DNA of 64,000 nucleotides from positions 62,001 to 126,000 of the forward strand of contig CAJQUW010007256.1 in the NCBI GenBank assembly GCA_907163375.1, given 5' to 3'. The stretch is from Prostheceraeus crozeri (lineage: Eukaryota; Platyhelminthes; Polycladida; Euryleptidae). The notes under the pieces were generated by a model. That model did not search any database. It was not told the origin of the DNA and worked only from the letters and a program-made list of their open reading frames with translations. How positions within the stretch are numbered: position 1 is the stretch's first letter; every line of letters begins with the position of its first letter. Shown one piece after another: positions 22,657-59,750 of the stretch. Both the position numbers and the translations under genes were made by a program.

Positions 22657-22692
22657 TGCGCCTCCCGCCTCATGCCATTAAATATTCTATAG

Positions 22693-26826: not shown

Positions 26827-27103
26827 CTTGAATGCCTCCTCGAAATAGTTATTGCCTTCCAGGAAGAGACCGTAGTTGATGATGGTGAGCGGAGTTGCGA
26901 TTCGCAAATCGATGATATGATCGTAAACTGCTTTACAAGTCTTGAAAGATCCGAAACTTTCCTCGATGTCAGCGTAGAGCGACCAGAGTTTGAGAGATTT
27001 GTGTAACCGACGTTGCACTGTCTCTGATCTGTCGTGGTAATCAATTCGACGTTCAGGAATTGCAGTGGCTTTTGCCAACAATTTCAAGACTTTGTCAACG
27101 TTT
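26827..27103 (-). CDS. XAB2: XAB2/SYF1 pre-mRNA splicing factor, internal exon (downstream of the two seen)
   Basis: XAB2 (SYF1 in yeast) is a scaffold of the Prp19/NineTeen complex. It acts in the nucleus in spliceosome activation and, in mammals, in transcription-coupled repair. This exon encodes 92 codons plus one leading base, beginning NVDKVLKLLAKATAIPERR. It continues through SLKLWSLYADIEESFGSF to DLRIATP, INYGLFLEG and NNYFEEAFK. These are successive HAT (half-a-TPR) repeats, matching the middle of the animal protein with no gaps. The acceptor CTTGCTCCACAG precedes 27103. The donor GTAAGG follows 26827, leaving phase 0. The leading A completes the AA carried over from the upstream exon (58647), giving lysine. 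The exon is intact, with no stop or frameshift. The next exon in the family would begin near AYE-GI-LFKWPN. I did not find it in positions 1-26826. Confidence 0.92.
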
Positions 27104-27788
27104 CTGTGGAGCAAGAAGTGAGAATTAGATCCATGCGACATATTGAAATTCTGCTGAAACAAAATTCAACCCAATCTGATTCTATTCACACGGAAGTTCA
27201 TCAATATCTGCACTTTGAAGTCCAGCGTGTACTTGTATATCGTGTAGATATATCGGAGTGCTTCAAGTTCTCATACAATGAAGAACAGGCAGCAAAAATG
27301 AAGCAGTTTTTGTCGACACTAATGCTGTGGATGTGATTTGTCATTATGAGCATTTATTCGATGTCCTTGTCATTACTACGAGCTCCCGATACGCAATATC
27401 AAACGATGTATAAGAAAAGGAAGAAAACCTCAAAAGTCACAAAAGCACTGGTTAACGAACATTTATTAAGAGATAAAAACAGACTGTCCTTGACCTGGAA
27501 ATCTTCGAGCTTGATATATCGATTCTTCGTAGAGACAATTTATGCGCATCGAAAAAGTACTTTGTAAAAACTTAGACCGGATTTTGAGAAATAAGATTCG
27601 ATGTAAAATGAAAACAATTTAGTGGCAAATGCCATTCGTCTGCAGTTTCGATATTATTTTCTCTGATAGTAGAAGGCTAATCTCAAGCCTCAAATGGACA
27701 GATTCTCTTCAATGCGCGCATTTTCTCGAATAAACACCACGGTAATATGATTTTCACAGAAAGACGTACACCTTATGAACACCACGAA
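27104..27788. other. Intronic sequence, nothing recognised
   Basis: Unique-looking sequence between the XAB2 exon and the hAT element. The last 8 bases (ACCACGAA, 27781-27788) are the left target duplication of that element. Confidence 0.45.
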
Positions 27789-28685
27789 CATTGTTTTATC
27801 CAGCCCTGTTTTGGGGGGAAGTTTCCCCCCCCCTAGATGTCAAAATTACCCCCTTATGAAGGAAAACAACGAAAATCATACACTTGATAAAGGATGTATA
27901 GCTTTAAATTTTTAAGATCGTAATTCGCCTTTGGCTTTTAAATCGCTGAATGAAGTGACGCTCCGCTGACTGCAGACCGGTTATATGTGCGCCTTTAGGA
28001 ACAGCGTCCGTGGAAAGGAGTTTTTCCACTATGAATCGAGTTACAACTCGCTTAAGGCAAAGATTGTTTCCGCATTACGTCCGCGATGCAATGCTGGTCA
28101 GCATTGAGGGATCCAAGATTGATGATTTCACGTCAATTGTGAACTCTGGCATTCTAGCAAGGCCAGACGACTGCAAATTCCAGACAGTAAACAATAACAC
28201 CCATAATTCTCATCCTTCTTCCTGTTTTTTGGAAAATGAATTTTTATAGTACAATGGCTATTTTCTACATTATGTAAAAGTACTAATGAATTCTGGGGCA
28301 GTGTACATATATGCGTACATGTGAAAGTAATTATTGATGTACTGTCATGATAATGATAAATAATTGATGTGAAATGTAGTGGCGATCAAGTAAAAACCTT
28401 TCAGTCATTAAATAATCATTTAATCTGGAACAAGTGATTAGCTAAAAGTTACAATTTGAAACATTTCACCATCTCGAAATTATAGTCCTAAAATATACAT
28501 GTATAATAGGCATGTTTTGCAGTATTCATGAACAGTGAAATGTTATGTGTAGAGGGCCATTTATATGTTACATAAGGAGTTGGAATTTCTCATTGCCTGA
28601 TGTCGAGATACACAAACATTCAGACCACCCCCCCCCTTTATCAAAATTTCCCCCCCCTGAACCACTAGGAGTGGATAAAACACTG
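27789..28685 (+). mobile_element. hAT-superfamily DNA transposon remnant, 897 bp
   Basis: The element is bounded by a perfect 8-bp target duplication, ACCACGAA, at 27781-27788 and 28686-28693. Its ends are inverted: CATTGTTTTATCCA on the left and the complement of CAGTGTTTTATCCA on the right. Runs of C or G follow on both sides (27815-27835 and 28625-28658). The 8-bp duplication and short ends are classic for hAT. It contains the C-terminal part of a hAT transposase. It is an internally deleted copy lying within the XAB2 intron. Confidence 0.88.
27959..28249 (+). pseudogene. hAT transposase, C-terminal dimerisation region
   Basis: The open frame from about 27959 to the stop at 28249 encodes a stretch containing PLGTASVERSFSTMNRVTTR, then LRQRLFPHYVRDAMLVSIEG. 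This matches the C-terminal hATC dimerisation motif seen in many animal hAT transposases (A-SVERSFS-M-RIKT-LR, then L--IEG). The BED zinc finger and the catalytic part are missing and no start codon is apparent. It is a fragment, not a working enzyme. The frame is closed upstream by a stop at 27956-27958. Confidence 0.75.
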
Positions 28686-28693
28686 ACCACGAA

Positions 28694-30389
28694 TCTGAGC
28701 GTCTGAGAGTTCTACTCGATTCCTCTTCTTATCAGACGGAGAATTCAATATTTCACCCGACTGAATCACGTAATCAATGTACCTTTACGTATCTGCCCAT
28801 GCATCTGCTGCTTCCATTATTCAAAAGTGAACGTAATGCGTGTGACATCAAATTCGTGTCAAAATATAAAAAAATATCTCAATATAGCAAGAAGTGTTAA
28901 AGGAAAAGATGTGGAATTTTGCATTTAGCGACCTGGTAGAACGCTCGAGTAGAATTTTGGTCTAGAAAAGCCTCTGACACCCTGTACAATGAAATATGTG
29001 ATAGGGAGTCGAATGGTATACATGACTTCACAAAAACTTCACCCACAGTCCATCATGTCATGCTATGGCTAATACCGAGGCATTATTCATTCCGTTCAAG
29101 ATTGAAATCTTGATATCTTGCAAATGGAAGAAAGCATTATGGAGACTTCTTCATGCATCGATCACTTCATTCGAAAGTGTTCATTTGTTTCTACTCTAAA
29201 AAACACAATGTCGCATTCACCAAGGAAGAAAAACGTTTGCGATTCATTCGACAATCTACCGAATTATTGCAAATAGTCAGCATATTAGAGCAACTTTTGA
29301 TACCAGTATGTATCAATCTATAGTAACGAATTAATCATTCGTAAAACATTCAGTGATAGTCTACTTATTACAGCTCAGATTAAGTGCAATAAGCAGCTTG
29401 AGTGTAAATATAGAGCTGTTTCATTCTTCCCCCACAACGCTTCTGAATCTTGCCAACATTCGTTGAATTTATAATTGGATATTCACTCAGATTGAGAACA
29501 TGCTCATATGCAGAACTTGATTTCTTGAAGTTTTGGTCAACGTGAGACACTTTCTCGGCTTTTCAATATTGAAACGCCGATGGAAGCGGTGATTTAGCTG
29601 CCGCCTCGTTTCATGTAGAGAGACTACGTATGTTCTAAAACGACGTAAACCAATTTGTAGAAAAGTCAACTTCACAATGATTTAGAAGGTAAACCGGCTG
29701 CGGTTCTGCAAGCAAAAGAACTGTCAGTACAAGCCGAATGCAGAGCAAGATGGTGTCAGTGTTTGATATAAAACGACTGGCTGCTGCTAAATGAGGACAA
29801 TTAGAGAAGATCACTTTGCAGTTTTAGTTATTTACTGAAATCTCCTTGCTTTTAATTACAGAACATAGAAATCCGACTGTTCGCTACTGTTTAGATAAGT
29901 AATTCTAGAACAGAAGCAATCTCGATGGTCATCTCAGCTGTTCGGCTGGGCACTGATAGAGTTCTTCTCCTTCGTCGATTCGACGTTGTTCCAACCTTCA
30001 CATCAGGTCGGCCGCTCGGCACCTCTTCCATCTCGCTCTGTCGCTGCCTTTGTCCCCTTGCATAACATCTTCCAACCTCAGCATCTGCCGTCCTCTGCTC
30101 CTTCCTCCGGTCACAGAAGCCTCCTACACTTTCCTCAAGATGCTTCCCTCTCCTCGTCTCTACACGCGTCTTGTCCATCGTCATCTGCCTTCTCTTGCTG
30201 ACAATACTTGCGACCTTCAGCCTTACCAAATCAAAATGATTTTGTTAAAGAGAAATGATGATTATCGTGAATCTTTATTAAGTACAAGGTGCCGGCATTG
30301 CTGTGATGTCCGTTCCAGTTCTTCAGTGATATACCTTCAGATTTCTATGTTACAGCAATTTAACTCCCAAAGACTACTGTTCCAACCAT
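28694..30389. other. Intronic sequence, nothing firmly recognised
   Basis: A GC-richer block at about 29940-30230 is open on both strands. It is arginine-rich on the minus strand (112 codons) and serine/proline-rich on the plus strand. I recognise no family. It could be a decayed mobile-element fragment. Confidence 0.4.
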
Positions 30390-30646
30390 AGAAATTGACA
30401 ACAATAAAACCTCTAGAGTGGAAATTAAGCTTCATGCAATGCACAATAACGGCACATAAATCGCACGCATTTTCACTTAGATACACCTGCCAACGTCTGT
30501 ATCATTGGGTTAGAATCAGTCACATGAGTAAATCGAAGCTTTTAATTGGTTCTTCATGCCCCAACTTAGTTCCCTCGGATGTGCCGCGACCTTGAGTCAA
30601 TTTCCATTCTAGTCAACTTCAGATAAACAGTTTATTTCTATGGTTC
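30390..30646 (+). mobile_element. 5'-truncated SINE copy, family 1 body
   Basis: This is the reverse-orientation counterpart of the minus-strand SINE body at 3163-3470. Both share, in order, GAAATTGACAACA, ATTTTCACTTAGATACAC, GTTAGAATCAGTCACATG, CCCCAACTTAGTTCCC and GACCTTGAGTCAATTTCC. Identity is high, with small indels. The tRNA-like head is absent. Confidence 0.75.
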
Positions 30647-31991
30647 CAACATGTCATCGATTTTCACAGCTAACTTGCTTGACTGCAGCACGGTTTCAGA
30701 TTTCTAGGGTTTTATTCACTTCTCTTCCATCGACAACGTCACAATCATTTTCGTCTTCATAGATAGCGATAAGAATTTAAAGCAAATGAAGAAATCTACG
30801 TGGTAAGTGATTGAAGTTTTTTCTATTGAATGACGATGTGCCTCTGCCATCAGCAACTCCATTCCTTTGTTATTTTCACAATCATTTCACAGGTTTAGGG
30901 ATCCATCATTCCAACATTTGTTGATCTATTTCAATGACTTTGCTTTCCTGTCAGACATAATTCAGTCTCCGATCAAATATCAACAACTGATGGAATGTGC
31001 ATACTTTGACAAAATACGTCTATCATGCCATGAGGCGGAATATTCGTCCTATTAAACAGCAAAACTATTCCTTTCATTGTCTCACTCATTCCGACAGTTC
31101 ATCAAAACTTCAAACTGTCGCTCTCGCAAAATGTCTTTCCGCTCGCCATTAAAGTATGCACCTGGAGAGCAATTAGACAATGTCTTTGTGACAGAGCTGT
31201 CAGTGTGAGTTAAGTGCATCTCAGACCAGCAAGTGAAAACTGTCCTCGCTGCTCTTGTCATGTGAATAACAGCCTAAATATGTAATCGGAAACAGTTGGA
31301 GAAACAGCATTCCTCAGAAAAGAGCGTGAGAAGAGCAGAGGAAAGTATTGTATCTTTGTATCAAGTGATTTCTATCCACTTTCGTTTTGACCTTTTAATT
31401 TGACGATGTACAGGAAGTTTGAGTACAACGGGGAGATCGCTACGGCGCGCATGGACACAAAATGTTGACTTTAGTTGGCGAGAAACCACTATGTCAATAC
31501 TCAATGGGTTGCGTGTCATTCTTTCGTGTATAATTTTCTCACAAGGCAACGTTCATCAACTTGAGACACTTGAGCCAAGTGAAGAGAAGACAGCTCGTAT
31601 CACTTGATTCGAGTTTTTATTATCATTCTCGTGGTAAATTGAATCTCATGAAATTGGGAAGTGAAGACGGGAGAAATGTGCAAGGTGAAATCCAGGAACG
31701 AACAAGATCATCTACAGCACATGCGCGTGCCTTCTTTTGAGTGCCAAGAAAATTCATGTTGGCGTATTTATCGTCGTTCTCGCGACAATATCTTCTATGT
31801 GACTTCACAAGGTTACTGGTTAATACCTACTACGTGTCAAATTACAAACTTTTCAGAAGCGAATAACTGCCTATAGATTGCGATGCTTATCGAAAATGGA
31901 AACCATCTTAGCATGTGCCTTTTAATCCTTCTACTATCGACAGGACATTTTCTAATACAAATTGAATCCAAGAAGGGGCTGCAGTTTAGTG
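30647..31991. other. Intronic sequence, nothing recognised
   Basis: No gene, repeat or conserved motif was noticed between the truncated SINE and the left edge of the 59-bp array. Confidence 0.4.
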
Positions 31992-34900
31992 CAATCAATG
32001 TTATGAAAACACTTGTGAGATATTAACCAACAATGCATTATTTGACATAGCAGTCCGTGGCACAGTGGTTGCGTACTTGGACTAGCGATCTCATGGTCCA
32101 GAGGTCGAACCCGGAAAGTGTCATTGGAAGTCGGATGGAAGGGCATCCGGACTACAAAGCACCCCAACGCTCCAAACAAAGTCTGACCTAAGTCAGCACC
32201 GTCCAAGGCCCCAGTAGGGGTAAAAAGTGACGTAAAATCCGTAAAAAAAAAAAAAAAAAAAGCAGTATCGGTTGCTAAAACACTTGTGAGATATTAACCA
32301 ACAATGCATTATTTGACATGGCAATATCTGTTGCTAAAACACATGTGAGATATTAACCAACAATGCATTATTTGACATAGCAATATCTGTTGCTAAAACA
32401 CATGTGAGATATTAATCAACAATGCATTTGACATAGCAATATCTGTTGCTAAAACACATGTGAGATATTAACCAACAATGCATTATTTGACATAGCAATA
32501 TCTGTTGCTAAAACACATGTGAGATATTAACCAACAATGCATTATTTGACATAGCAATATCTGTTGCTAAAACACATGTGAGATATTAACCAACAATGCA
32601 TTATTTGACATAGCAATATCTGTTGCTAAAACACATGTGAGATATTAACCAACAATGCATTATTTGACATAGCAATATCTGTTGCTAAAACACATCTCAG
32701 ATATTAACCAACAATGTATTATTTGACATAGCAATATCTGTTGCTAAAACACATGTGAGATATTAACCAACAATGCATTGACATAGCAATATCTGTTGCT
32801 AAAACACTTGTGAGATATTAACCAACAATGCATTATTTGACATAGCAATATCTGTTGCTAAAACACATCTCAGATATTAACCAACAATGCATTATTTGAC
32901 ATAGCAATATCTGTTGCTAAAACACATCTCAGATATTAACCAACAATGCATTATTTGACATAGCAATATCTGTTGCTAAAACACATCTCAGATATTAACC
33001 AACAATGCATTATTTGACATAGCAATATCTGTTGCTAAAACACATGTGAGATATTATCCAACAATGCATTATTTGACATAGCAATATCTGTTGCTAAAAC
33101 ACATCTCAGATATTAACCAACAATGCATTATTTGACATAGCAATATCTGTTGCTAAAACACATGTGAGATATTAACCAACAATGCATTATTTGACATAGC
33201 AATATCTGTTGCTAAAACACATGTGAGATATTAACCAACAATGCATTATTTGACATAGCAATATCTGTTGCTAAAACACATCTCAGATATTAACCAACAA
33301 TGCATTATTTGACATAGCAATGTCTGTTGCTAAAACACATCTCAGATATTAACCAACAATGTATTATTTGACATAGCAATATCTGTTGCTAAAACACATG
33401 TGAGATATTAACCAACAATGCATTATTTGACATGGCAATATCTGTTGCTAAAACACATCTCAGATATTAACCAACAATGCATTATTTGACATAGCAATAT
33501 CTGTTGCTAAAACACTTGTGAGATATTAACCAACAATGCATTATTTGACATAGCAATATCTGTTGCTAAAACACATCTCAGATATTAACCAACAATGCAT
33601 TATTTGACATAGCAATATCTGTTGCTAAAACACATGTGAGATATTAACCAACAATGCATTATTTGACATAGCAATATCTGTTGCTAAAACACATGTGAGA
33701 TATTAACCAACAATGCATTATTTGACATAGCAATATCTGTAGCTAAAACACATGTGAGATATTAACCAACAATGCATTATTTGACATAGCAATATCTGTT
33801 GCTAAAACACATGTGAGATATTAACCAACAATGCATTATTTGACATAGCAATATCTGCTGCTAAAACACATGTGAGATATTAACCAACAATGCATTATTT
33901 GACATAGCAATATCTGTTGCTAAAACACTTGTGAGATATTAACCAACAATGCATTATTTGACATGGGCTACTTAGCTTAATGAACATCAAGCAATATCTG
34001 CTGCTAAAACACTTGTGAGATATTAACCAACAATGCATTATTTCACATAGCAATATCTGTTGCTAAAACACATCTCAGATATTAACCAACAATGCATTAT
34101 TTTGACATAGCAATATCTGTTGCTAAAACACATGTGAGATATTAACCAACAATGCATTATTTGACATAGCAATATCTGTTGCTAAAACACATGTGAGATA
34201 TTAACCAACAATGCATTATTTGACATAGCAATATCTGTTGCCAAAACACTTGTGAGATATTAACCAACAATGCATTATTTGACATAGCAATATCTGTTGC
34301 CAAAACACTTGTGAGATATTAACCAACAATGCATTATTTCACATAGCAATATCTGTTGCTAAAACACATCTCAGATATTAACCAACAATGCATTATTTGA
34401 CATAGCAATATCTGTTGCTAAAACACATGTGAGATATTAACCAACAATGCATTATTTGACATAGCAATATCTGTTGCTAAAACACATGTGAGATATTAAC
34501 CAACAATGCATTATTTGACATAGCAATATCTGTTGCCAAAACACTTGTGAGATATTAACCAACAATGCATTATTTGAAATAGCAATATCTGTTGCTAAAA
34601 CACCTGTGAGATATTAACCAACAATGCATTATTTGACATAGCAATATCTGTTGCTAAAACACATGTGAGATATTAACCAACAATGCATTATTTGACATAG
34701 CAATATCTGTTGCTAAAACACTTGTGAGATATTAACCAACAATGCATTATTTGACATAGCAATATCTGCTGCTAAAACACATGTGAGATATTAACCAACA
34801 ATGCATTTGACATAGCAATATCTGTTGCTAAAACACATGTGAGATATTAATCAACAATGCATTATTTGACATAGCAATATCTGTTGCCAAAACACATGTG

Positions 34901-37900
34901 AGATATTAACCAACAATGCATTATTTGACATAGCAATATCTGTTGCTAAAACACATGTGAGATATTAACCAACAATGCATTATTTGACATAGCAATATCT
35001 GTTGCTAAAACACATGTGAGATATTAACCAACAATGCATTATTTGACATAGCAATATCTGTTGCTAAAACACATGTGAGATATTATCCAACAATGCATTA
35101 TTTGACATAGCAATATCTGTTGCTAAAACACATGTGAGATATTAACCAACAATGCATTATTTGACATAGCAATATCTGTTGCTAAAACACATGTGAGATA
35201 TTAACCAACAATGTATTATTTGACATAGCAATATCTGTTGCTAAAACACATCTCAGATATTAACCAACAATGCATTATTTGACATAGCAATATCTGTTGC
35301 TAAAACACATGTGAGATATTAACCAACAATGCATTATTTGACATAGCAATATCTGTTGCCAAAACACTTGTGAGATATTAACCAACAATGCATTATTTGA
35401 CATAGCAATATCTGTTGCTAAAACACCTGTGAGATATTAACCAACAATGCATTATTTGACATAGCAATATCTGTTGCCAAAACACATGTGAGATATTAAC
35501 CAACAATGCATTATTTGACATAGCAATATCTGTTGCTAAAACACATGTGAGATATTAACCAACAATGCATTTGACATAGCAATATCTGTTGCTAAAACAC
35601 TTGTGAGATATTAACCAACAATGCATTATTTGACATAGCAATATCTGTTGCTATAACACTTGTGAGATATTAACCAACAATGCATTATTTGACATAGCAA
35701 TATCAGTTGCTGAAACACATCTCAGATATTAACCAACAATGCATTATTTGACATAGCAATATCTGTTGCTAAAACACATGTGAGATATTAACCAACAATG
35801 CATTATTTGACATAGCAATATCTGTTGCTAAAACACATGTGAGATATTAACCAACAATGCATTATTTGACATAGCAATATCTGTTGCTAAAACACATGTG
35901 AGATATTAACCAACAATGCATTATTTGACATAGCAATATCTGTTGCTAAAACACATGTGAGATATTAACCAACAATGCATTATTTGACATAGCAATATCT
36001 GTTGCTAAAACACATGTGAGATATTAACCAACAATGCATTATTTGACATAGCAATATCTGTTGCTAAAACACATCTCAGATATTAACCAACAATGCATTA
36101 TTTGACATAGCAATATCTGTTGCTAAAACACATCTCAGATATTAACCAACAATGCATTATTTGACATAGCAATATCTGTTGCTAAAACACTTGTGAGATA
36201 TTATCCAACAATGCATTATTTGACATAGCAATATCTGTTGCCAAAACACATGTGAGATATTAACCAACAATGCATTATTTCACATAGCAATATCTGTTGC
36301 TATAACACTTGTGAGATATTAACCAACAATGCATTATTTGACATAGCAATATCTGTTGCTAAAACACATGTGAGATATTAACCAACAATGCATTATTTGA
36401 CATAGCAATATCTGTTGCCAAAACACTTGTGAGATATTAACCAACAATGCATTATTTGACATAGCAATATCTGTTGCTAAAACACATGTGAGATATTAAC
36501 CAACAATGCATTATTTGACATAGCAATATCTGTTGCTAAAACACATGTGAGATATTAACCAACAATGCATTATTTGACATAGCAATATCTGTTGCTAAAA
36601 CACATGTGAGATATTAACCAACAATGCATTATTTGACATAGCAATATCTGTTGCTAAAACACATGTGAGATATTAACCAACAATGCATTATTTGACATAG
36701 CAATATCTGTTGCTAAAACACTTGTGAGATATTAACCAACAATGCATTATTTGACAGAGCAATATCTGTTGCTAAAACACCTGTGAGATATTATCCAACA
36801 ATGCATTATTTGACATAGCAATATCTGTTGCCAAAACACTTGTGAGATATTAACCAACAATGCATTGACATAGCAATATCTGTTGCTAAAACACATCTCA
36901 GATATTAACCAACAATGCATTATTTGACATAGCAATATCTGTTGCTAAAACACATGTGAGATATTAACCAACAATGCATTATTTGACATAGCAATATCTG
37001 TTGCTAAAACACATGTGAGATATTATCCAACAATGCATTATTTGACATAGCAATATCTGTTGCTAAAACACATGTGAGATATTAACCAACAATGCATTAT
37101 TTGACATAGCAATATCTGTTGCTAAAACACATGTGAGATATTAACCAAACAATGCATTATTTGACATAGCAATATCTGTTGCTAAAACACATCTCAGATA
37201 TTAACCAACAATGCATTATTTGACATAGCAATATCTGTTGCTAAAACACATCTCAGATATTAACCAACAATGCATTATTTGACATAGCAATATCTGTTGC
37301 CAAAACACTTGTCAGATATTAACCAACAATGCATTATTTGACATGGCAATATCTGTTGCTAAAACACTTGTGAGATATTAACCAACAATGTATTATTTGA
37401 CATAGCAATATCTGTTGCTAAAACACATGTGAGATATTAACCAACAATGCATTATTTGACATAGCAATATCTGTTGCTAAAACACATGTGAGATATTATC
37501 CAACAATGCATTATTTGACATAGCAATATCTGTTGCTAAAACACATGTGAGATATTAACCAAACAATGCATTATTTGACATAGCAATATCTGTTGCTAAA
37601 AACACTTGTGAGATATTAACCAACAATGCATTATTTGACATAGCAATATCTGTTGCTAAAACACATCTCAGATATTAACCAACAATGCATTATTTGACAT
37701 AGCAATATCTGTTGCTAAAACACTTGTGAGATATTAACCAACAATGCATTATTTGACATAGCAATATTCTGTTGCTAAAACACATCTCAGATATTAACCA
37801 ACAATGCATTATTTGAACATAGCAATATCTGTTGCTAAAACACATCTCAGATATTAACCAACAATGCATTATTTGACATAGCAATATCTGTTGCTAAAAC

Positions 37901-40900
37901 ACTTGTGAGATATTAACCAACAATGCATTATTTGACATAGCAATATCTGTTGCTAAAACACATCTCAGATATTAACCAACAATGCATTATTTGACATAGC
38001 AATATCTGTTGCTAAAACACATGTGAGATATTAACCAACAATGCATTATTTGACATAGCAATATCTGTTGCTAAAACACATCTCAGATATTAACCAACAA
38101 TGCATTATTTGACATAGCAATATCTGTTGCTAAAACACATGTGAGATATTAACCAACAATGCATTATTTGACATAGCAATATCTGTTGCTAAAACACATC
38201 TCAGATATTAACCAACAATGCATTATTTGACATAGCAATATCTGTTGCTAAAACACATGTGAGATATTAACCAACAATGCATTATTTGACATAGCAATAT
38301 CTGTTGCTAAAACACATCTCAGATATTAACCAACAATGCATTATTTGACATAGCAATATCTGTTGCTAAAACAAATCTCAGATATTAACCAACAATGCAT
38401 TATTTGACATAGCAATATCTGTTGCTAAAACACATGTGAGATATTAACCAACAATGCATTATTTGACATAGCAATATCTGCTGCTAAAACACATGTGAGA
38501 TATTAACCAACAATGCATTATTTGACATAGCAATATCTGTTGCTAAAACACTTGTGAGATATTAACCAACAATGCATTATTTGACATAGCAATATCTGTT
38601 GCTAAAACATATCTCAGATATTAACCAACAATGCATTATTTGACATAGCAATATCTGTTGCTAAAACACATGTGAGATATTAACCAACAATGCATTATTT
38701 GACATAGCAATGTCTGTTGCTAAAACACATGTCAGATATTAACCAACAATGCATTATTTGACATAGCAATATCTGTTGCTAAAACACATCTCAGATATTA
38801 ACCAACAATGCATTATTTGACATAGCAATATCTGTTGCTAAAACACCTGTGAGATATTAACCAACAATGCATTATTTGACATAGCAATATCTGTTGCTAA
38901 AACACATCTCAGATATTAACCAACAATGCATTATTTGACATAGCAATATCTGTTGCTAAAACACTTGTGAGATATTAACCAACAATGCATTATTTGACAT
39001 AGCAATATCTGTTGCTAAAACACCTGTGAGATATTAACCAACAATGCATTATTTCACATAGCAATATCTGTTGCTAAAACACCTGTGAGATATTAACCAA
39101 CAATGCATTATTTGACATAGCAATATCTGTTGCTAAAACACATCTCAGATATTAACCAACAATGCATTATTTGACATAGCAATATCTGTTGCTAAAACAC
39201 ATCTCAGATATTAACCAACAATGCATTATTTGACATAGCAATATCTGTTGCTAAAACACATCTCAGATATTAACCAACAATGCATTATTTACATAGCAAT
39301 ATCTGTTGCTAAAACACATGTGAGATATTAACCAACAATGCATTATTTGACATAGCAATGTCTGTTGCTAAAACACATGTCAGATATTAACCAACAATGC
39401 ATTATTTGACATAGCAATATCTGTTGCTAAAACACATGTGAGATATTAACCAACAATGCATTATTTGACATAGCAATATCTGTTGCTAAAACACATCTCA
39501 GATATTAACCAACAATGCATTATTTGACATAGCAATATCTGTTGCTAAAACACATATCAGATATTAACCAACAATGCATTATTTGACATAGCAATATCTG
39601 TTGCTAAAACACATGTGAGATATTAACCAACAATGCATTATTTGACATAGCAATATCTGCTGCTAAAACACATGTGAGATATTAACCAACAATGCATTAT
39701 TTGACATAGCAATATCTGTTGCTAAAACACTTGTGAGATATTAACCAACAATGCATTATTTGACATAGCAATATCTGTTGCTAAAACACATCTCAGATAT
39801 TAACCAACAATGCATTATTTGACATAGCAATATCTGTTGCTAAAACACATGTGAGATATTAACCAACAATGCATTATTTGACATAGCAATGTCTGTTGCT
39901 AAAACACATGTCAGATATTAACCAACAATGCATTATTTGACATAGCAATATCTGTTGCTAAAACACATCTCAGATATTAACCAACAATGCATTATTTGAC
40001 ATAGCAATATCTGTTGCTAAAACACCTGTGAGATATTAACCAACAATGCATTATTTGACATAGCAATATCTGTTGCTAAAACACATCTCAGATATTAACC
40101 AACAAATGCATTATTTGACATAGCAATATCTGTTGCTAAAACACTTGTGAGATATTAACCAACAATGCATTATTTGACATAGCAATATCTGTTGCTAAAA
40201 CACCTGTGAGATATTAACCAACAATGCATTATTTCACATAGCAATATCTGTTGCTAAAACACCTGTGAGATATTAACCAACAATGCATTATTTGACATAG
40301 CAATATCTGTTGCTAAAACACATCTCAGATATTAACCAACAATGCATTATTTGACATAGCAATATCTGTTGCTAAAACACTTGTGAGATATTAACCAACA
40401 ATGCATTATTTGACATAGCAATATCTGTTGCTAAAACACATCTCAGATATTAACCAACAATGCATTATTTGACATAGCAATATCTGTTGCTAAAACACAT
40501 GTGAGATATTAACCAACAATGCATTATTTGACATAGCAATGTCTGTTGCTAAAACACATGTCAGATATTAACCAACAATGCATTATTTGACATAGCAATA
40601 TCTGTTGCTAAAACACATCTCAGATATTAACCAACAATGCATTATTTGACATAGCAATATCTGTTGCTAAAACACCTGTGAGATATTAACCAACAATGCA
40701 TTTGACATAGCAATATCTGTTGCTAAAACACATGTGAGATATTAACCAACAATGCATTATTTGACATAGCAATATCTGTTGCTAAAACACATGTGAGATA
40801 TTAACCAACAATGCATTGACATAGCAATATCTGTTGCTAAAACACATGTGAGATATTAACCAACAATGCATTATTTGACATAGCAATATCTGTTGCTAAA

Positions 40901-46900: not shown

Positions 46901-49900
46901 AGCAATATCTGTTGCTAAAACACATCTCAGATATTAACCAACAATGCATTATTTGACATAGCAATATCTGTTGCTAAAACACATGTGAGATATTAACCAA
47001 CAATGCATTATTTGACATAGCAATATCTGTTGCTAAAACACATCTCAGATATTAACCAACAATGCATTATTTGACATAGCAATATCTGTTGCTAAAACAC
47101 ATCTCAGATATTAACCAACAATGCATTATTTGACATAGCAATATCTGTTGCTAAAACACATCTCAGATATTAACCAACAATGCATTATTTGACATAGCAA
47201 TATCTGTTGCTAAAACACATCTCAGAAATTAACCAACAATGCATTATTTGACATAGCAATATCTGTTGCTAAAACACATCTCAGATATTAACCAACAATG
47301 CATTATTTGACATAGCAATATCTGTTGCTAAAACACATGTGAGATATTAACCAACAATGCATTATTTGACATAGCAATATCTGTTGCTAAAACACATCTC
47401 AGATATTAACCAACAATGCATTATTTGACATAGCAATATCTGTTGCTAAAACACATGTGAGATATTAACCAACAATGCATTATTTGACATAGCAATATCT
47501 GTTGCTAAAACACATCTCAGATATTAACCAACAATGCATTATTTGACATAGCAATATCTGTTGCTAAAACACATCTCAGATATTAACCAACAATGCATTA
47601 TTTGACATAGCAATATCTGTTGCTAAAACACATCTCAGATATTAACCAACAATGCATTAATTGACATAGCAATATCTGTTGCTAAAACACATCTCAGATA
47701 TTAACCAACAATGCATTATTTGACATAGCAATATCTGTTGCTAAAACACATCTCAGATATTAACCAACAATGCATTATTTGACATAGCAATATCTGTTGC
47801 TAAAACACCTGTGAGATATTAACCAACAATGCATTATTTGACATAGCAATATCTGTTGCTAAAACACATCTCAGATATTAACCAACAATGCATTATTTGA
47901 CATAGCAATATCTGTTGCTAAAACACATCTCAGATATTAACCAACAATGCATTATTTGACATAGCAATATCTGTTGCTAAAACACATCTCAGATATTAAC
48001 CAACAATGCATTATTTGACATAGCAATATCTGTTGCTAAAACACTTGTGAGACATTAACCAACAATGCATTATTTCACATAGCAATATCTGCTGCTAAAA
48101 CACATCTCAGATATTAACCAACAATGCATTATTTGACATAGCAATATCTGTTGCTAAAACACATCTCAGATATTAACCAACAATGCATTATTTGACATAG
48201 CAATATCTGTTGCTAAAACACATGTGAGATATTAACCAACAATGCATTATTTGACATAGCATTATCTGTTGCTAAAACACCTGTGAGATATTAACCAACA
48301 ATGCATTATTTGACATAGCAATATCTGTTGCTAAAACACATCTCAGATATTAACCAACAATGCATTATTTGACATAGCAATATCTGTTGCTAAAACACAT
48401 CTCAGATATTAACCAACAATGCATTATTTGACATAGCAATATCTGTTGCTAAAACACATGTGAGATATTAACCAACAATGCATTATTTGACATAGCAATA
48501 TCTGTTGCTAAAACACATCTCAGATATTAACCAACAATGCATTATTTGACATAGCAATATCTGTTGCTAAAACACATCTCAGATATTAACCAACAATGCA
48601 TTATTTGACATAGCAATATCTGTTGCTAAAACACATCTCAGATATTAACCAACAATGCATTATTTGACATAGCAATATCTGTTGCTAAAACACATCTCAG
48701 ATATTAACCAACAATGCATTATTTGACATAGCAATATCTGTTGCTAAAACACATCTCAGATATTAACCAACAATGCATTATTTGACATAGCAATATCTGT
48801 TGCCAAAAACACATCTCAGATATTAACCAACAATGCATTATTTGACATAGCAATATCTGTTGCCAAAAACACATCTCAGATATTAACCAACAATGCATTA
48901 TTTGACATAGCAATATCTGTTGCTAAAACACATCTCAGATATTAACCAACAATGCATTATTTGACATAGCAATATCTGTTGCTAAAACACATGTGAGATA
49001 TTAACCAACAATGCATTATTTGACATAGCAATATCTGTTGCTAAAACACATGTGAGATATTAACCAACAATGCATTAATTGACATAGCAATATCTGTTGC
49101 TAAAACACATGTGAGATATTAACCAACAATGCATTATTTGACATAGCAATATCTGTTGCTAAAACACATGTGAGATATTAACCAACAATGCATTATTTGA
49201 CATAGCAATATCTGTTGCTAAAACACATCTCAGATATTAACCAACAATGCATTATTTGACATAGCAATATCTGTTGCTAAAACACTTGTGAGATATTAAC
49301 CAACAATGCATTATTTGACATAGCAATATCTGTTTCTAAAACACATCTCAGATATTAACCAACAATGCATTATTTGACATAGCAATATCTGTTGCTAAAA
49401 CACATCTCAGATATTAACCAACAATGCATTATTTGACATAGCAATATCTGTTGCTAAAACACTTGTGAGACATTAACCAACAATGCATTATTTGACATAG
49501 CAATATCTGTTGCTAAAACACATCTCAGATATTAACCAACAATGCATTATTTGACATAGCAATATCTGTTGCTAAAACACATCTCAGATATTAAACAACA
49601 ATGCATTATTTGACATAGCAATATCTGTTGCTAAAACACTTGTGAGACATTAACCAACAATGCATTATTTGACATAGCAATATCTGTTGCTAAAACACAT
49701 CTCAGATATTAACCAACAATGCATTATTTGACATAGCAATATCTGTTGCTAAAACACTTGTGAGACATTAACCAACAATGCATTATTTGACATAGCAATA
49801 TCTGTTGCCAAAAACACATGTGAGATATTAACCAACAATGCATTATTTGACATAGCAATATCTGTTGCTAAAACACATCTTAGATATTAACCAACAATGC

Positions 49901-52900
49901 ATTATTTGACATAGCAATATCTGTTGCTAAAACACCTGTGAGATATTAACCAAAATGCATTATTTGACATAGAAATATCTGTTGCTAAAACACATCTCAG
50001 ATATTAACCAACAATGCATTATTTGACATAGCAATATCTGTTGCTAAAACACATCTCAGATATTAACCAACAATGCATTATTTGACATAGCAATATCTGT
50101 TGCTAAAACACTTGTGAGATATTAACCAACAATGCATTATTTGACATAGCAATATCTGTTGCTAAAACACATCTCAGATATTAACCAACAATGCATTAAT
50201 TGACATAGCAATATCTGTTGCTAAAACACATCTCAGATATTAACCAACAATGCATTATTTGACATAGCAATATCTGTTGCTAAAACACATCTCAGATATT
50301 AACCAACAATGCATTATTTGACATAGCAATATCTGTTGCTAAAACAAATCTCAGATATTAACCAACAATGCATTATTTGACATAGCAATATCTGTTGCTA
50401 AAACACTTGTGAGATATTAACCAACAATGCATTATTTGACATAGCAATATCTGTTGCTAAAACACATCTCAGATATTAACCAACAATGCATTATTTGACA
50501 TAGCAATATCTGTTGCTAAAACACATCTCAGATATTAACCAACAATGCATTATTTGACATAGCAATATCTGTTGCTAAAACACTTGTGAGACATTAACCA
50601 ACAATGCATTATTTGACATAGCAATATCTGTTGCTAAAACACCTGTGAGATATTAACCAACAATGCATTATTTGACATAGCAATATCTGTTGCTAAAACA
50701 CATCTCAGATATTAACCAACAATGCATTATTTGACATAGCAATATCTGTTGCTAAAACACATCTCAGATATTAACCAACAATGCATTATTTGACATAGCA
50801 ATATCTGTTGCTAAAACACATCTCAGATATTAACCAACAATGCATTATTTGACATAGCAATATCTGTTGCTAAAACACATCTCAGATATTAACCAACAAT
50901 GCATTATTTGACATAGCAATATCTGTTGCTAAAACACATCTCAGATATTAACCAACAATGCATTATTTGACATAGCAATATCTGTTGCTAAAACACATGT
51001 GAGATATTAACCAACAATGCATTATTTGACATAGCAATATCTGTTGCTAAAACACATGTGAGATATTAACCAACAATGCATTAATTGACATAGCAATATC
51101 TGTTGCTAAAACACATGTGAGATATTAACCAACAATGCATTATTTGACATAGCAATATCTGTTGCTAAAACACATGTGAGATATTAACCAACAATGCATT
51201 ATTTGACATAGCAATATCTGTTGCTAAAACACATCTCAGATATTAACCAACAATGCATTATTTGACATAGCAATATCTGTTGCTAAAACACTTGTGAGAT
51301 ATTAACCAACAATGCATTATTTGACATAGCAATATCTGTTTCTAAAACACATCTCAGATATTAACCAACAATGCATTATTTGACATAGCAATATCTGTTG
51401 CTAAAACACATCTCAGATATTAACCAACAATGCATTATTTGACATAGCAATATCTGTTGCTAAAACACTTGTGAGACATTAACCAACAATGCATTATTTG
51501 ACATAGCAATATCTGTTGCTAAAACACATCTCAGATATTAACCAACAATGCATTATTTGACATAGCAATATCTGTTGCTAAAACACATCTCAGATATTAA
51601 CCAACAATGCATTATTTGACATAGCAATATCTGTTGCTAAAACACTTGTGAGACATTAACCAACAATGCATTATTTGACATAGCAATATCTGTTGCTAAA
51701 ACACATCTCAGATATTAACCAACAATGCATTATTTGACATAGCAATATCTGTTGCTAAAACACTTGTGAGACATTAACCAACAATGCATTATTTGACATA
51801 GCAATATCTGTTGCCAAAAACACATGTGAGATATTAACCAACAATGCATTATTTGACATAGCAATATCTGTTGCTAAAACACATCTTAGATATTAACCAA
51901 CAATGCATTATTTGACATAGCAATATCTGTTGCTAAAACACCTGTGAGATATTAACCAAAAATGCATTATTTGACATAGAAATATCTGTTGCTAAAACAC
52001 ATCTCAGATATTAACCAACAATGCATTATTTGACATAGCAATATCTGTTGCTAAAACACATCTCAGATATTAACCAACAATGCATTATTTGACATAGCAA
52101 TATCTGTTGCTAAAACACATGTGAGATATTAACCAACAATGCATTATTTGACATAGCAATATCTGTTGCTAAAACACATCTCAGATATTAACCAACAATG
52201 CATTATTTGACATAGCAATATCTGTTGCTAAAACACATGTGAGATATTAACCAACAATGCATTATTTGACATAGCAATATCTGTTGCTAAAACACATCTC
52301 AGATATTAACCAACAATGCATTATTTGACATAGCAATATCTGTTGCTAAAACACATCTCAGATATTAACCAACAATGCATTATTTGACATAGCAATATCT
52401 GTTGCTAAAACACATCTCAGATATTAACCAACAATGCATTAATTGACATAGCAATATCTGTTGCTAAAACACATCTCAGATATTAACCAACAATGCATTA
52501 TTTGACATAGCAATATCTGTTGCTAAAACACATCTCAGATATTAACCAACAATGCATTATTTGACATAGCAATATCTGTTGCTAAAACAAATCTCAGATA
52601 TTAACCAACAATGCATTATTTGACATAGCAATATCTGTTGCTAAAACACTTGTGAGATATTAACCAACAATGCATTATTTGACATAGCAATATCTGTTGC
52701 TAAAACACATCTCAGATATTAACCAACAATGCATTATTTGACATAGCAATATCTGTTGCTAAAACACATCTCAGATATTAACCAACAATGCATTATTTGA
52801 CATAGCAATATCTGTTGCTAAAACACTTGTGAGACATTAACCAACAATGCATTATTTGACATAGCAATATCTGTTGCTAAAACACCTGTGAGATATTAAC

Positions 52901-55900
52901 CAACAATGCATTATTTGACATAGCAATATCTGTTGCTAAAACACATCTCAGATATTAACCAACAATGCATTATTTGACATAGCAATATCTGTTGCTAAAA
53001 CACTTGTGAGACATTAACCAACAATGCATTATTTGACATAGCAATATCTGTTGCTAAAACACATCTCAGATATTAACCAACAATGCATTATTTGACATAG
53101 CAATATCTGTTGCTAAAACACTTGTGAGACATTAACCAACAATGCATTATTTGACATAGCAATATCTGTTGCCAAAAACACATGTGAGATATTAACCAAC
53201 AATGCATTATTTGACATAGCAATATCTGTTGCTAAAACACATGTGAGATATTAACCAACAATGCATTATTTGACATAGCAATATCTGTTGCTAAAACACC
53301 TGTGAGATATTAACCAAAAATGCATTATTTGACATAGCAATATCTGTTGCTAAAACACATCTCAGATATTAACCAACAATGCATTATTTGACATAGCAAT
53401 ATCTGTTGCTAAAACACATCTCAGATATTAACCAACAATGCATTATTTGACATAGCAATATCTGTTGCTAAAACACATCTCAGATATTAACCAACAATGC
53501 ATTATTTGACATAGCAATATCTGTTGCTAAAACACATCTCAGATATTAACCAACAATGCATTATTTGACATAGCAATATCTGTTGCTAAAACACATGTGA
53601 GATATTAACCAACAATGCATTATTTGACATAGCAATATCTGTTGCTAAAACACATCTCAGATATTAACCAACAATGCATTATTTGACATAGCAATATCTG
53701 TTGCTAAAACACATCTCAGATATTAACCAACAATGCATTATTTGACATAGCAATATCTGTTTGCTAAAACACATCTCAGATATTAACCAACAATGCATTA
53801 ATTGACATAGCAATATCTGTTGCTAAAACACATCTCAGATATTAACCAACAATGCATTATTTGACATAGCAATATCTGTTGCTAAAACACATCTCAGATA
53901 TTAACCAACAATGCATTATTTGACATAGCAATATCTGTTGCTAAAACAAATCTCAGATATTAACCAACAATGCATTATTTGACATAGCAATATCTGTTGC
54001 TAAAACACTTGTGAGATATTAACCAACAATGCATTATTTGACATAGCAATATCTGTTGCTAAAACACATCTCAGATATTAACCAACAATGCATTATTTGA
54101 CATAGCAATATCTGTTGCTAAAACACATCTCAGATATTAACCAACAATGCATTATTTGACATAGCAATATCTGTTGCTAAAACACTTGTGAGACATTAAC
54201 CAACAATGCATTATTTGACATAGCAATATCTGTTGCTAAAACACCTGTGAGATATTAACCAACAATGCATTATTTGACATAGCAATATCTGTTGCTAAAA
54301 CACATCTCAGATATTAACCAACAATGCATTATTTGACATAGCAATATCTGTTGCTAAAACACATCTCAGATATTAACCAACAATGCATTATTTGACATAG
54401 CAATATCTGTTGCTAAAACACATCTCAGATATTAACCAACAATGCATTATTTGACATAGCAATATCTGTTGCTAAAACACATCTCAGATATTAACCAACA
54501 ATGCATTATTTGACATAGCAATATCTGTTGCTAAAACACATGTGAGATATTAACCAACAATGCATTATTTGACATAGCAATATCTGCTGCTAAAACACAT
54601 CTCAGATATTAACCAACAATGCATTATTTGACATAGCAATATCTGTTGCTAAAACATAACTCAGAAATTAACCAACAATGCATTATTTGACATAGCAATA
54701 TCTGTTGCTAAAACACATCTCAGATATTAACCAACAATGCATTAATTGACATAGCAATATCTGTTGCTAAACACATCTCAGATATTAACCAACAATGCAT
54801 TATTTGACATAGCAATATCTGTTGCTAAAACACATCTCAGATATTAACCAACAATGCATTATTTGACATAGCAATATCTGTTGCTAAAACACATCTCAGA
54901 TATTAACCAACAATGCATTATTTGACATAGCAATATCTGTTGCTAAAACACATCTCAGATATTAACCAACAATGCATTATTTGACATAGCAATATCTGTT
55001 GCTAAAACACATCTCAGATATTAACCAACAATGCATTATTTGACATAGCAATATCTGTTGCTAAAACACATGTGAGATATTAACCAACAATGCATTATTT
55101 GACATAGCAATATCTGTTGCTAAAACACCTGTGAGATATTAACTAACAATGCATTATTTGACATAGCAATATCTGTTGCTAAAACACATGTGAGATATTA
55201 ACCAACAATGCATTATTTGACATAGCAATATCTGTTGCTAAAACACATCTCAGATATTAACCAACAATGCATTATTTGACATAGCAATATCTGTTGCTAA
55301 AACACATGTGAGATATTAACCAACAATGCATTATTTGACATAGCAATATCTGTTGCTAAAACACATGTGAGATATTAACCAACAATGCATTATTTGACAT
55401 AGCAATATCTGTTGCTAAAACACATGTGAGATATTAACCAACAATGCATTATTTGACATAGCAATATCTGTTGCTAAAACACATCTCAGATATTAACCAA
55501 CAATGCATTAATTGACATAGCAATATCTGTTGCTAAAACACATCTCAGATATTAACCAACAATGCATTATTTGACATAGCAATATCTGTTGCTAAAACAC
55601 ATCTCAGATATTAACCAACAATGCATTATTTGACATAGCAATATCTGTTGCTAAAACACATCTCAGATATTAACCAACAATGCATTATTTGACATAGCAA
55701 TATCTGTTGCTAAAACACTTGTGAGACATTAACCAACAATGCATTATTTGACATAGCAATATCTGTTGCTAAAACACTTGTGAGATATTAACCAACAATG
55801 CATTATTTGACATAGCAATATCTGTTGCTAAAACACATCTCAGATATTAACCAACAATGCATTATTTGACATAGCAATATCTGTTGCTAAAACACATCTC

Positions 55901-58091
55901 AGATATTAACCAACAATGCATTATTTGACATAGAAATATCTGTTGCTAAAACACATCTCAGATATTAACCAACAATGCATTATTTGACATAGCAATATCT
56001 GTTGCTAAAACAAATCTCAGATATTAACCAACAATGCATTATTTGACATAGCAATATCTGTTGCTAAAACACATCTCAGATATTAACCAACAATGCATTA
56101 TTTGACATAGCAATATCTGTTGCTAAAACACTTGTGAGATATTAACCAACAATGCATTATTTGACATAGCAATATCTGTTGCTAAAACACTTGTGAGATA
56201 TTAACCAACAATGCATTATTTGACATAGCAATATCTGTTGCTAAAACACATCTCAGATATTAACCAACAATGCATTATTTGACATAGCAATATCTGTTGC
56301 TAAAACACATGTGAGATATTAACCAACAATGCATTATTTGACATAGCAATATCTGTTGCTAAAACACATCTCAGATATTAACCAACAATGCATTATTTGA
56401 CATAGCAATATCTGTTGCTAAAACACCTGTGAGATATTAACCAACAATGCATTATTTGACATAGCAATATCTGTTGCTAAAACACCTGTGAGATATTAAC
56501 CAACAATGCATTATTTGACATAGCAATATCTGTTGCTAAAACACCTGTGAGATATTAACCAACAATGCATTATTTGACATAGCAATATCTGTTGCTAAAA
56601 CACATCTCAGATATTAACCAACAATGCATTATTTGACATAGCAATATCTGTTGCTAAAACATTTGTGAGATATTAACCAACAATGCATTATTTGACATAG
56701 CAATATCTGTTGCTAAAACACATCTCAGATATTAACCAACAATGCATTATTTGACATAGCAATATCTGTTGCTAAAACACATGTGAGATATTAACCAACA
56801 ATGCATTATTTGACATAGCAATATCTGTTGCTAAAACACTTGTGAGATATTAACCAACAATGCATTATTTGACATAGCAATATCTGTTGCTAAAACACAT
56901 GTGAGATATTATCCAACAATGCATTATTTGACATAGCAATATCTGTTGCTAAAACACCTGTGAGATATTAACCAACAATGCATTATTTGACATAGCAATA
57001 TCTGTTGCTAAAACACATCTCAGATATTAACCAACAATGCATTATTTGACATGGCAATATCTGTTGCTGAAACACATCTCAGATATTAACCAACAATGCA
57101 TTATTTGACATAGCAATATCTGTTGCTAAAACACATGTGAGATATTAACCAACAATGCATTATTTGACATAGCAATATCTGTTGCTAAAACACATCTCAG
57201 ATATTAACCAACAATGCATTATTTGACATAGCAATATCTGTTGCTAAAACACCTGTGAGATATTAACCAACAATGCATTATTTGACATAGCAATATCTGT
57301 TGCTAAAACATTTGTGAGATATTAACCAACAATGCATTATTTGACATAGCAATATCTGTTGCTAAAACACTTGTGAGATATTAACCAACAATGCATTATT
57401 TGACATAGCAATATCTGTTGCTAAAACACATCTCAGATATTAACCAACAATGCATTATTTGACATAGCAATATCTGTTGCTAAAACACATCTCAGATATT
57501 AACCAACAATGCATTATTTGACATAGCAATATCTGTTGCTAAAACACATGTGAGATATTAACCAACAATGCATTATTTGACATAGCAATATCTGTTGCTA
57601 AAACACATCTCAGATATTAACCAACAATGCATTATTTGACATAGCAATATCTGTTGCTAAAACACATCTCAGATATTAACCAACAATGCATTATTTGACA
57701 TAGCAATATCTGTTGCTAAAACAAATCTCAGATATTAACCAACAATGCATTATTTGACATAGCAATATCTGTTGCTAAAACACATCTCAGATATTAACCA
57801 ACAATGCATTATTTGACATAGCAATATCTGTTGCTAAAACACTTGTGAGATATTAACCAACAATGCATTATTTGACATAGCAATATCTGTTGCTAAAACA
57901 CTTGTGAGATATTAACCAACAATGCATTATTTGACATAGTAATATCTGTTGCTAAAACACATCTCAGATATTAACCAACAATGCATTATTTGACATAGCA
58001 ATATCTGTTGCTAAAACACTTGTGAGATATTAACCAACAATGCATTATTTGACATGGCAATATCTGTTGCTGAAACACATCTCAGATATTA
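31992..58091. repeat. Giant 59-bp tandem satellite array, about 440 units
   Basis: The unit is 59 bp and can be read CAATATCTGTTGCTAAAACA, then C + ATCTCAG or ATGTGAG, ATATTAACCAACAATGCATT, ATTTGACATAG. It repeats almost without break over about 26 kb, apart from a SINE at 32055-32261. The first unit (31992-32050) is diverged. The last stops at 58091, mid-unit. Main subtypes differ at the variable box: CATGTGAG, CATCTCAG, CTTGTGAG and CCTGTGAG. A few units are shortened by 4-5 bp (near 32428, 32778, 34806, 35571, 36866, 40702 and 40814). A 24-base foreign insert is at about 33967-33990. The whole array lies in one XAB2 intron. Confidence 0.98.
32055..32261 (+). mobile_element. tRNA-derived SINE, family 2, with poly(A) tail
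   Basis: The head has A-box-like TGGCACAGTGG and B-box-like GGTCGAACCC. The body contains CATTGGAAGTCGGATG, GGGCATCCGGACTA, CAACGCTCC, GTCAGCACCGTCCAAG and AGTGACGTAAAA. It ends in a 19-base A run (32243-32261). GCAGT flanks both sides (32050-32054 and 32262-32266). The second copy, at 59550-59750 on the opposite strand, confirms the family. It landed within the left edge of the 59-bp array. The A run is intact, which suggests a recent insertion. Confidence 0.9.
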
Positions 58092-58646
58092 CTTGCTAGC
58101 AGTCTACGAAACTTTTAAGTGACTTTTCCTTAAGATTTAGACTGCATTGGTCGCTGAAGATTTGATACACGATCCGGATAATCATTAATAAAACTTTTAC
58201 CGAAAAAAGCGAAAAATGCACATAGAAGGTATTGTATACACTCGGCTTTCACAGAGTATACACATGTATCAGCACATAATTGCAAGACTTCGGGACATTC
58301 CATGCCAAAAAGTATAGCTTCAGACTCAGTACTTCTCACTCTATCAAAGAAAACATGTCATTTCTACCAAAACACCTTCAATCTGCTTCCCATTGGATCT
58401 TCATGTTTTTCTTTGATCATGCCTGACAAGAAGAGGAGCCAGGTAGAACTCGGCAGACGCGCAGATTCGTAGTAGTCGTAGGGTACTTTTGGCCTCGTTT
58501 CTGTTGAAACTCATGCTGGCGGCCTGACTACTATGACTCGATTCGATGCAGCTAAGGATACACCTTTCGAGGTTCGCATTGAAATGAATGCTTCTGTCTA
58601 AGCTTACACATATAACATGACATGAATGAGAGGAAATATTTCTCAC
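58092..58646. other. Intronic sequence between array end and XAB2 exon
   Basis: About 555 bp of non-repeated sequence. Minus-strand frames here show no family. This is the donor-proximal end of the long XAB2 intron. Confidence 0.5.
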
Positions 58647-58819
58647 TTGTGCACGAGCTCCATTTCCACCCATTCACACCAGACAGAGGCAAGATCATCG
58701 ACGGATTTGAAGGGCTGATCGGTGGCCTTCTCAAAGATGAGCCGAGCGTCATCCAATTGGCCATTCTTGTCGTAAAACTTTGCGAAGTCACACCAGAGGG
58801 TATGAGGCTTTCCGACTGC
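58647..58819 (-). CDS. XAB2: XAB2/SYF1 pre-mRNA splicing factor, internal exon (upstream of the two seen)
   Basis: The exon encodes 57 codons plus two bases, beginning AVGKPHTLWCDFAKFYDKNG. It continues QLDDARLIFEKATDQPFKSV and DDLASVWCEW and ends with ELVHK, whose last codon is split. This is a HAT-repeat stretch of XAB2/SYF1 and is immediately followed, in the animal protein, by the segment encoded at 27103-26827. The acceptor TTCGATGTTTCAG sits before 58819 in phase 0. The donor GTGAGA follows 58647 in phase 2, which joins exactly to the next exon. The two exons together are 450 bases, 150 codons, with no stop. An apparent ATG at 58828-58826 lies inside the acceptor and is not a start. Upstream exons should lie at higher coordinates but were not found up to 64000. 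Confidence 0.92.
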
Positions 58820-59549: not shown

Positions 59550-59750
59550 GAAAAAAATGAAGCTTTTACGTCACTACTCCCCATACTTGCGGCTTGGACG
59601 GTGCTGACATAGTCAGACTTATGGAGCGTTGTGGTACTTTTAGTCGGGATGCCCTTCATGCCGACTTCCAATGACACCTTCGGGGCTCGACCTCTGGACC
59701 GAAAGATCGCTAGGCCAAGCACTTAACCACTGTGCCACGGAGACCACTAA
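59550..59750 (-). mobile_element. tRNA-derived SINE, family 2, second copy
   Basis: The reverse complement matches the SINE at 32055-32261 along its whole length: CCGTGGCACAGTGGTT, CTAGCGATC, GGTCCAGAGGTCGA, TGTCATTGGAAGTCGG, GGGCATCC, CAACGCTCC, GTCAGCACCGTCCAAG and AGTGACGTAAAA. The tail is short and A-rich. AGTATT on either side may be its target duplication. It is more diverged than the other copy, so it is probably older. Confidence 0.85.

Follow-up and report, generated by a model that had tools for sequence, protein, structure and literature searches.

How a tandem array of about 26 kb comes to lie within one intron of a splicing gene, and whether that gene needs anything out of the ordinary to cope with it, are the questions raised by a 64,000-nt stretch of the polyclad flatworm Prostheceraeus crozeri (contig CAJQUW010007256.1, positions 62001–126000). 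This stretch is hereafter called the window, and features are given in its own coordinates unless the contig is named. The gene is XAB2 (= SYF1), a general spliceosome component and splicing factor, and probably an essential gene. The analysis described below indicated that the array is very probably a transposon-borne tandem repeat, namely the interior of a short non-autonomous element of the terminal inverted repeat (TIR) type that grew in place within a long XAB2 intron.

To define the intron, its two flanking exons were delimited by translation and phmmer, and in the case of the upstream one also by its splice ends. The upstream exon (58647–58819, minus strand, 173 nt) starts at about residue 390 of the human protein, and the downstream exon (26827–27103, minus strand, 277 nt) extends to about residue 539. 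Joined together, they give 450 nt in one frame on the minus strand, and the best phmmer match of the resulting 150 residues among PDB sequences was human SYF1 390–539, aligned end to end and gapless at the junction (E 2.9e-70); Pfam assigned them to PF23231 (HAT_Syf1_CNRKL1_C, E 1.3e-64). The intron between them (27104–58646, minus strand, 31,543 bp) opens with the donor CACAA/GTGAGA and closes with the acceptor CTCCACAG/AAACG, so that it starts with GTGAGA and ends with CCACAG. The outer splice ends were likewise canonical, with the acceptor TTTCAG/GCAGTC before the upstream exon and the donor TTCAAG/GTAAGG after the downstream one. The gapless SYF1 match and the canonical splice ends ruled out a chance joining of the exons. 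Within the intron, the array stretch (32261–58091) occupies 25,831 bp and leaves a remainder of 5,712 bp. The original prediction, which had described two XAB2 exons joining in phase across a 31.5-kb intron consisting mostly of about 440 units of one 59-bp array, was thus borne out in these respects.

As the window covers only part of the gene, bases 1–62000 and 126001–206000 of the 303,377-base contig were also read, and contig 1–206000 was searched by tblastn with an approximate human XAB2 sequence. Seven exonic matches were found on one strand, collinear with SYF1 and covering human residues 15–540 over 106 kb. Five of them lie upstream of the window, namely residues 15–109 (contig 194803–194516), 109–179 (193634–193416), 172–232 (191019–190837), 234–307 (182800–182579), and 324–393 (166210–166001), and are followed by the two window exons, which phmmer and Pfam had confirmed. 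This collinearity ruled out a processed or isolated gene fragment. An eighth tblastn row (L010, E 0.89) was too weak, and was treated as noise and kept out of the exon count. Residues 1–14 and 308–323 had no tblastn coverage in contig 1–206000, and no match to residues beyond 540 was obtained in the 88.8 kb that remain on the left side of the last exon, where a very short exon could escape detection.

Judged from the edges of these matches, the XAB2 introns measure about 0.9, 2.4, 8, 16, 45, and 31.5 kb. A profile search of the genome with PF23231 gave eight matches (all 14 candidates were scored), and later positions of the profile matched contigs C9175 and C9520, which likely belong to XAB2, an assignment that has to be read in light of the fact that PF23231 covers both SYF1 and CRNKL1. 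Because the search for later exons on the contig was negative and the later part of the profile is matched on other contigs, the intron following the last found exon apparently exceeds 88 kb. XAB2 therefore has one intron longer than the satellite-bearing one (45 kb) and seemingly a second (>88 kb). Further tandem arrays of more than 1 kb are also present inside XAB2 introns, with units of 20 bp (contig 169637–171831), 31 bp (173957–176808), and 79 bp (183292–184426), so that the gene holds several minisatellites. The notion that a long intron is peculiar to this place consequently had to be given up. A 302-residue open frame for a mariner-type transposase (14481–15389, plus strand; PF01359, E 3.2e-23; PF13358, E 5.3e-8) also lies in the seemingly long intron that follows the second window exon.

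The array itself was resolved by Tandem Repeats Finder (TRF) into two adjoining blocks of the 59-bp unit, a left block at 32261–33964 (plus strand, 29.0 copies) and a main block at 33990–58091 (plus strand, 408.6 copies), each with 96% matches, summing to about 438 copies and 25.8 kb. When it was cut at a unit anchor, 435 units with 76 distinct sequences were obtained, the commonest of which occurs 170 times. The outermost left unit is interrupted by a tRNA-type short interspersed nuclear element (SINE) with a poly(A) stretch (32051–32260, plus strand), which left a partial unit on its other side (32006–32050, plus strand, recognised from sequence and BLAST); a possible short target duplication, AGCA(GT), was seen by eye. 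SINE-related pieces, full or partial, were found at ten other places in contig 1–206000 when two queries were combined, including a tRNA-type SINE of the same family at 59560–59742 (minus strand).

The sequences bordering the array carry the principal evidence on its origin. A search of the genome (2,048,925,868 bases in 14,165 contigs) with two units as the query revealed related units in at least 50 matches on at least 38 contigs (39 of 55 candidates scored), counts that are lower bounds since the search skips very common words and omits the window itself. Eight loci were obtained from these results, namely seven overlapping ones on contig C10575 (L001–L007) and one on contig C14148 (L008), of which L001 and L008 were read. 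TRF counted 23.8 copies in the L001 array and 21.9 in the L008 array, as against about 438 in XAB2. Both flanks of the window array were found to resemble those of the two short arrays. The left arm (31770–32005), in which the similarity to L001 and L008 starts at 31770–31771 and ends by BLAST at 31983, aligned to L008 in reverse complement with 79.5% identity over 224 columns (E 1.2e-51) and to L001 with 77.5% over 218 columns (E 1.7e-43). The right arm (58092–58235; BLAST-similar flank 58108–58223) aligned to L001 with 76.4% identity over 110 columns (E 3.7e-19) and to L008 in reverse complement with 75.6% over 119 columns (E 1.3e-18). Both arms were thus present at all three array loci whose flanks were read. 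As a control, 200 random slices of 250 bp were drawn from the parts of the window that lie outside the element; five matched L001 or L008, and all five overlap near 22252–22351, hitting another L001 repeat outside the element. On contig 1–206000, a BLAST search with the arms and units, considering hits wholly left of 94000 or right of 120100, returned only the window's own left arm.

Furthermore, the two ends of the window copy are inverted with respect to each other. An inner TIR on the left, ACAATATCTTCTATGTG (31785–31801, plus strand), is complementary at 16 of 17 positions to that on the right (58219–58235, minus strand; E 0.001). The TTCTATGTG form occurs at both window ends and is absent from L001 and L008, as would be expected if both belong to one element. 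The inverted repeat at the ends of L008 extends over 25 columns with 84% identity (21/25, E 2.5e-4), with the outer part TCGTCGTTGT at both ends. Taken from arm to arm, the putative non-autonomous TIR-type element spans 31770–58235 (26,466 bp) with the array inside. It was found to consist of arms of about 236 and 144 bp, the SINE, and the array, with no transposase gene in the window copy, in keeping with a non-autonomous element; the sole open frame of at least 100 residues overlapping it (31952–32293, minus strand) spans the SINE. Neither the SINE splitting the left unit (about 32051–32260) nor the transposon-like arms had been noticed in the original prediction.

These arms and inverted ends bear directly on the view, implied by that prediction, of a stand-alone satellite. 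Were the array of the centromeric or heterochromatic type, XAB2 would lie in heterochromatin or have been invaded by it, and a special expression programme like that of Drosophila Y genes would be needed; nothing observed in the window shows such a chromatin state. The length and homogeneity of the array, along with the other minisatellites and SINEs on the contig, would suit such a satellite, but the array sits between arms held in common with two short arrays and has inverted ends. In addition, the two sister arrays adjoin exons of ALDH4A1-like and ARFGAP2/3-like genes. At L008, positions 2264–2533 matched delta-1-pyrroline-5-carboxylate dehydrogenase (ALDH4A1 of the mammalian type, E 2.6e-40), and a short frame ending in LRGME beyond the array may, judged by eye, be the preceding ALDH4A1 exon. 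At L001, positions 33–164 matched ARFGAP3 (E 8.4e-11) and ARFGAP2 (E 9.4e-9) in phmmer against PDB sequences, with no Pfam match for this exon; the L001 array would accordingly lie within an intron, of which the exon on one side is known. Rfam at gathering scores gave nothing in L001, L008, L016, or L019. Finally, at about 25.8 kb, the array is far smaller than the megabases described for kl-3 and kl-5 (PMC6508621). A stand-alone satellite was hence considered unlikely.

Growth of the array within the transposon-like element was next assessed from the relationships among its units. Mean unit identity within arrays was 0.968 in the window (40 sampled units), 0.959 in L001 (15 of 18 pieces kept), and 0.902 in L008 (14 of 17 kept), as against 0.885 between L001 and the window, 0.763 between L001 and L008, and 0.732 between L008 and the window; pieces outside 50–66 bp were dropped from these sets, so that the more disordered L001 units are left out of the figures. 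Identity within arrays thus exceeds that between arrays, indicating that the units have been homogenised locus by locus. Among 406 window units of exactly 59 bp, neighbours were 0.969 identical and units 100–400 apart 0.965. The longest exact repeat in the array measures 781 bp (at 50159 and 53761), and many exact blocks of 300–781 bp recur, mostly spaced near multiples of 59. As far as sequence can tell, this pattern of blocks and identities fits repeated unequal exchange or slippage. The array is a satellite in the sense of a long homogeneous tandem array under concerted evolution.

The same units bear on whether the array length, or the exon–exon join, could be an artefact of assembly. Long tandem arrays are prone to a wrong assembled length, the 2.05-Gb assembly is divided into 14,165 contigs, of which this is one, and sequences resembling later parts of XAB2 were matched elsewhere than on this contig. 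Nevertheless, both edges of the array bear arms of the same element type, the seven exonic matches follow the order of SYF1 along 106 kb of a single strand, and the window contains no N (N count 0 in 64 kb). Accurate long reads could, moreover, resolve an array in which 76 distinct sequences occur among 435 units and no exact repeat exceeds 781 bp. An artefact was on these grounds judged improbable.

Several observations weigh against a TIR element as the source of the array. Only three loci with arms were available for comparison, and among these copies the inverted ends are complete at both ends only in L008. Those of L001 are weak (86% over 21 columns, E 0.04), and in the window copy the outermost TIR bases TCGTCGTT are present on the left but were not seen on the right. 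When the ends of the three copies were laid side by side, no clear target-site duplication was seen. Dispersed copies with one or two units, as judged from match lengths, are our guess at the founder form. A relationship between arms and units was also sought by comparing six arms in two orientations with the unit, each against 300 single-base shuffles. Neither window arm stood out, since 147, 32, 264, and 216 of 300 shuffles were as good. Three of the 12 comparisons did, namely L001 left (1/300 shuffles as good), L001 right (0/300), and L008 left (0/300); for the remainder, 119 and 205 of 300 shuffles were as good for L008 right, and 71, 85, and 66 for the opposite orientations of the three standout arms.

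The left window arm matches the unit only over 21 nt (76%), in inverted orientation, at 31817–31837, and units of the GTGAG form contain, inverted, the motif ATATCTCACATGTG that is found near the ends. From these comparisons, the unit may have originated from end sequence, an origin proposed for Tetris (PMC4079207), although this would not be apparent from the window copy by itself. Two other element classes were considered. In a foldback element of the Tetris type, the units would lie within long inverted repeats, whereas here they run one way between the arms; a Helentron/HINE with central tandem repeats, for which Helitron-type ends and no TIR would be expected, is argued against by the inverted ends.

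To examine what the array imposes on the transcript, simple processing motifs were counted along it. On the transcribed strand, AATAAA, ATTAAA, and GTRAG were all absent, where base composition would predict 26.8 AATAAA and 33.8 ATTAAA; on the other strand, AATAAA was absent, ATTAAA occurred once, and GTRAG 209 times. None of the 902 YAG on the sense strand has at least 70% pyrimidines in the 17 bases upstream (maximum 0.65), as compared with 0.82 for the true acceptor. Recursive splicing through the array was rejected, as the sense strand holds 35 [AC]AGGT but no AGGTRAG, no GTRAG, and no pyrimidine-rich YAG. Because one 59-bp sequence has been copied many times, the motif zeros amount to a single event and do not show selection. 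Simple sequence patterns thus give no sign of a splicing or 3'-end trap, and ordinary splicing looks adequate. This is compatible with published work, in which expression has been described for Drosophila genes whose satellite introns are far larger (PMC6508621) and co-transcriptional splicing aids gigantic Drosophila genes (PMC11207136).

These counts also bear on a functional array in XAB2, which would act as a splicing-load sensor coupling output to spliceosome capacity, or as an enhancer or RNA scaffold. The position in a spliceosome gene with very long introns and a sense-strand unit free of poly(A) hexamers and GTRAG could be read in its favour. The missing hexamer was, however, copied into every unit and is hence one event; related units occur at many other places; and their direction relative to the host gene varies among the three loci, the L001 units running in sense and those of L008 and XAB2 in antisense. 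We therefore regard a functional array as highly improbable. It also appeared very unlikely that an unusually heavy burden of introns, comprising the 26-kb array along with introns of about 45 kb and apparently >88 kb, makes the XAB2 transcript a demanding spliceosome substrate, with array length setting output by feedback. Of the original prediction's remark that such an array is unusual in a spliceosome gene, the part that stands is that the gene must remove the array from its own transcript, while no test run here assigns the array a function.

The observed exons and splice ends, the array, the arms common to three loci, the inverted ends, and the locus-specific homogeneity can be accommodated in the following course of events for the transposon-borne repeat. 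A short non-autonomous TIR DNA transposon carrying internal 59-bp units would have landed in a long XAB2 intron, the insertion presumably preceding the expansion. Unequal exchange or slippage would then probably have multiplied its units in situ, giving about 438 copies and 25.8 kb, and the array would have been homogenised into a locus-specific family, with a tRNA-type SINE inserting into the outermost left unit. The resulting 26.5-kb element would be transcribed within the XAB2 pre-mRNA and taken out as an ordinary intron by normal splicing. It would be selectively neutral there, and two things would explain why it is tolerated: strong donors and poly(A) signals are missing from the transcribed strand of the unit, and the gene already had very long introns.

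This kind of event is already known from satellites borne by TIR elements and by miniature inverted-repeat transposable elements (MITEs), and it is the size that is striking here. Among the titles and abstract openings searched, no satellite in XAB2 was reported. The known systems are compared here by description. A close likeness is to the Tetris foldback transposon with its TIR-220 satellite in Drosophila virilis, also a non-autonomous TIR element whose own tandem repeats multiply inside it into long arrays, with up to 66 copies reported and a 37-bp stretch common to the terminal domain and the repeat (PMC4079207). In Tetris, it is the inverted repeats that contain the tandem repeats, whose growth is assigned to beta-heterochromatin (PMC4079207), whereas the XAB2 element holds one array of about 438 copies in one orientation, between arms and in an intron. 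In the Xenopus satellites miDNA4 and Xstir, the monomer was amplified inside a small TIR element, and a review lists these and others as born in MITEs, along with satellites born in elements with central repeats (PMC9659126). TCAST-like elements of Tribolium castaneum similarly carry satellite-related sequence in TIR elements, in introns and near genes, but form dispersed arrays up to tetramers in TIR elements of up to 1181 bp, with a unit that belongs to the major pericentromeric satellite (PMC3411249). The Drosophila Y genes kl-3 and kl-5 likewise have a satellite within a protein-gene intron that is transcribed through, as the XAB2 array would be; they differ in having megabases of simple repeats in spermatocyte-expressed genes (PMC6508621), as compared with 26 kb of a 59-bp unit in XAB2.

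Elsewhere in the window, a second minisatellite was found at 11030–12848 (tandem array at contig 73104–74843), with a 68-bp unit (TRF, 23.3 copies over 11104–12708) and 137- and 81-bp variants; the minus-strand open frames in it are probably a by-product of the repeat. An inverted repeat at 13237–13652, of 140 nt with 97% complementarity and 136 nt between its arms, is perhaps another MITE-like element. A dispersed repeat at about 22252–22351, outside the element, is common with L001 2982–3100, and a long inverted repeat was seen by eye near 22430–22660. The only Rfam match in the window at gathering scores was a tRNA-like sequence at 25364–25434 (plus strand; RF00005, 37.5 bits), while ARAGORN with the bacterial code called no tRNA here or elsewhere in the window; the sequence may represent a gene or the head of a SINE.

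Taken together, one locus displays parts of the path from transposon to satellite, namely arms, inverted ends, and about 438 copies in a locus-specific array, and it can be set against two small sister arrays. The case suggests that an array growing in this way can attain 26 kb within an intron of a probably essential gene. Annotators are cautioned that the interior of a mobile element may present itself as a large intronic satellite, and the XAB2 array could serve as a test case of how tandem DNA is transcribed and spliced through.

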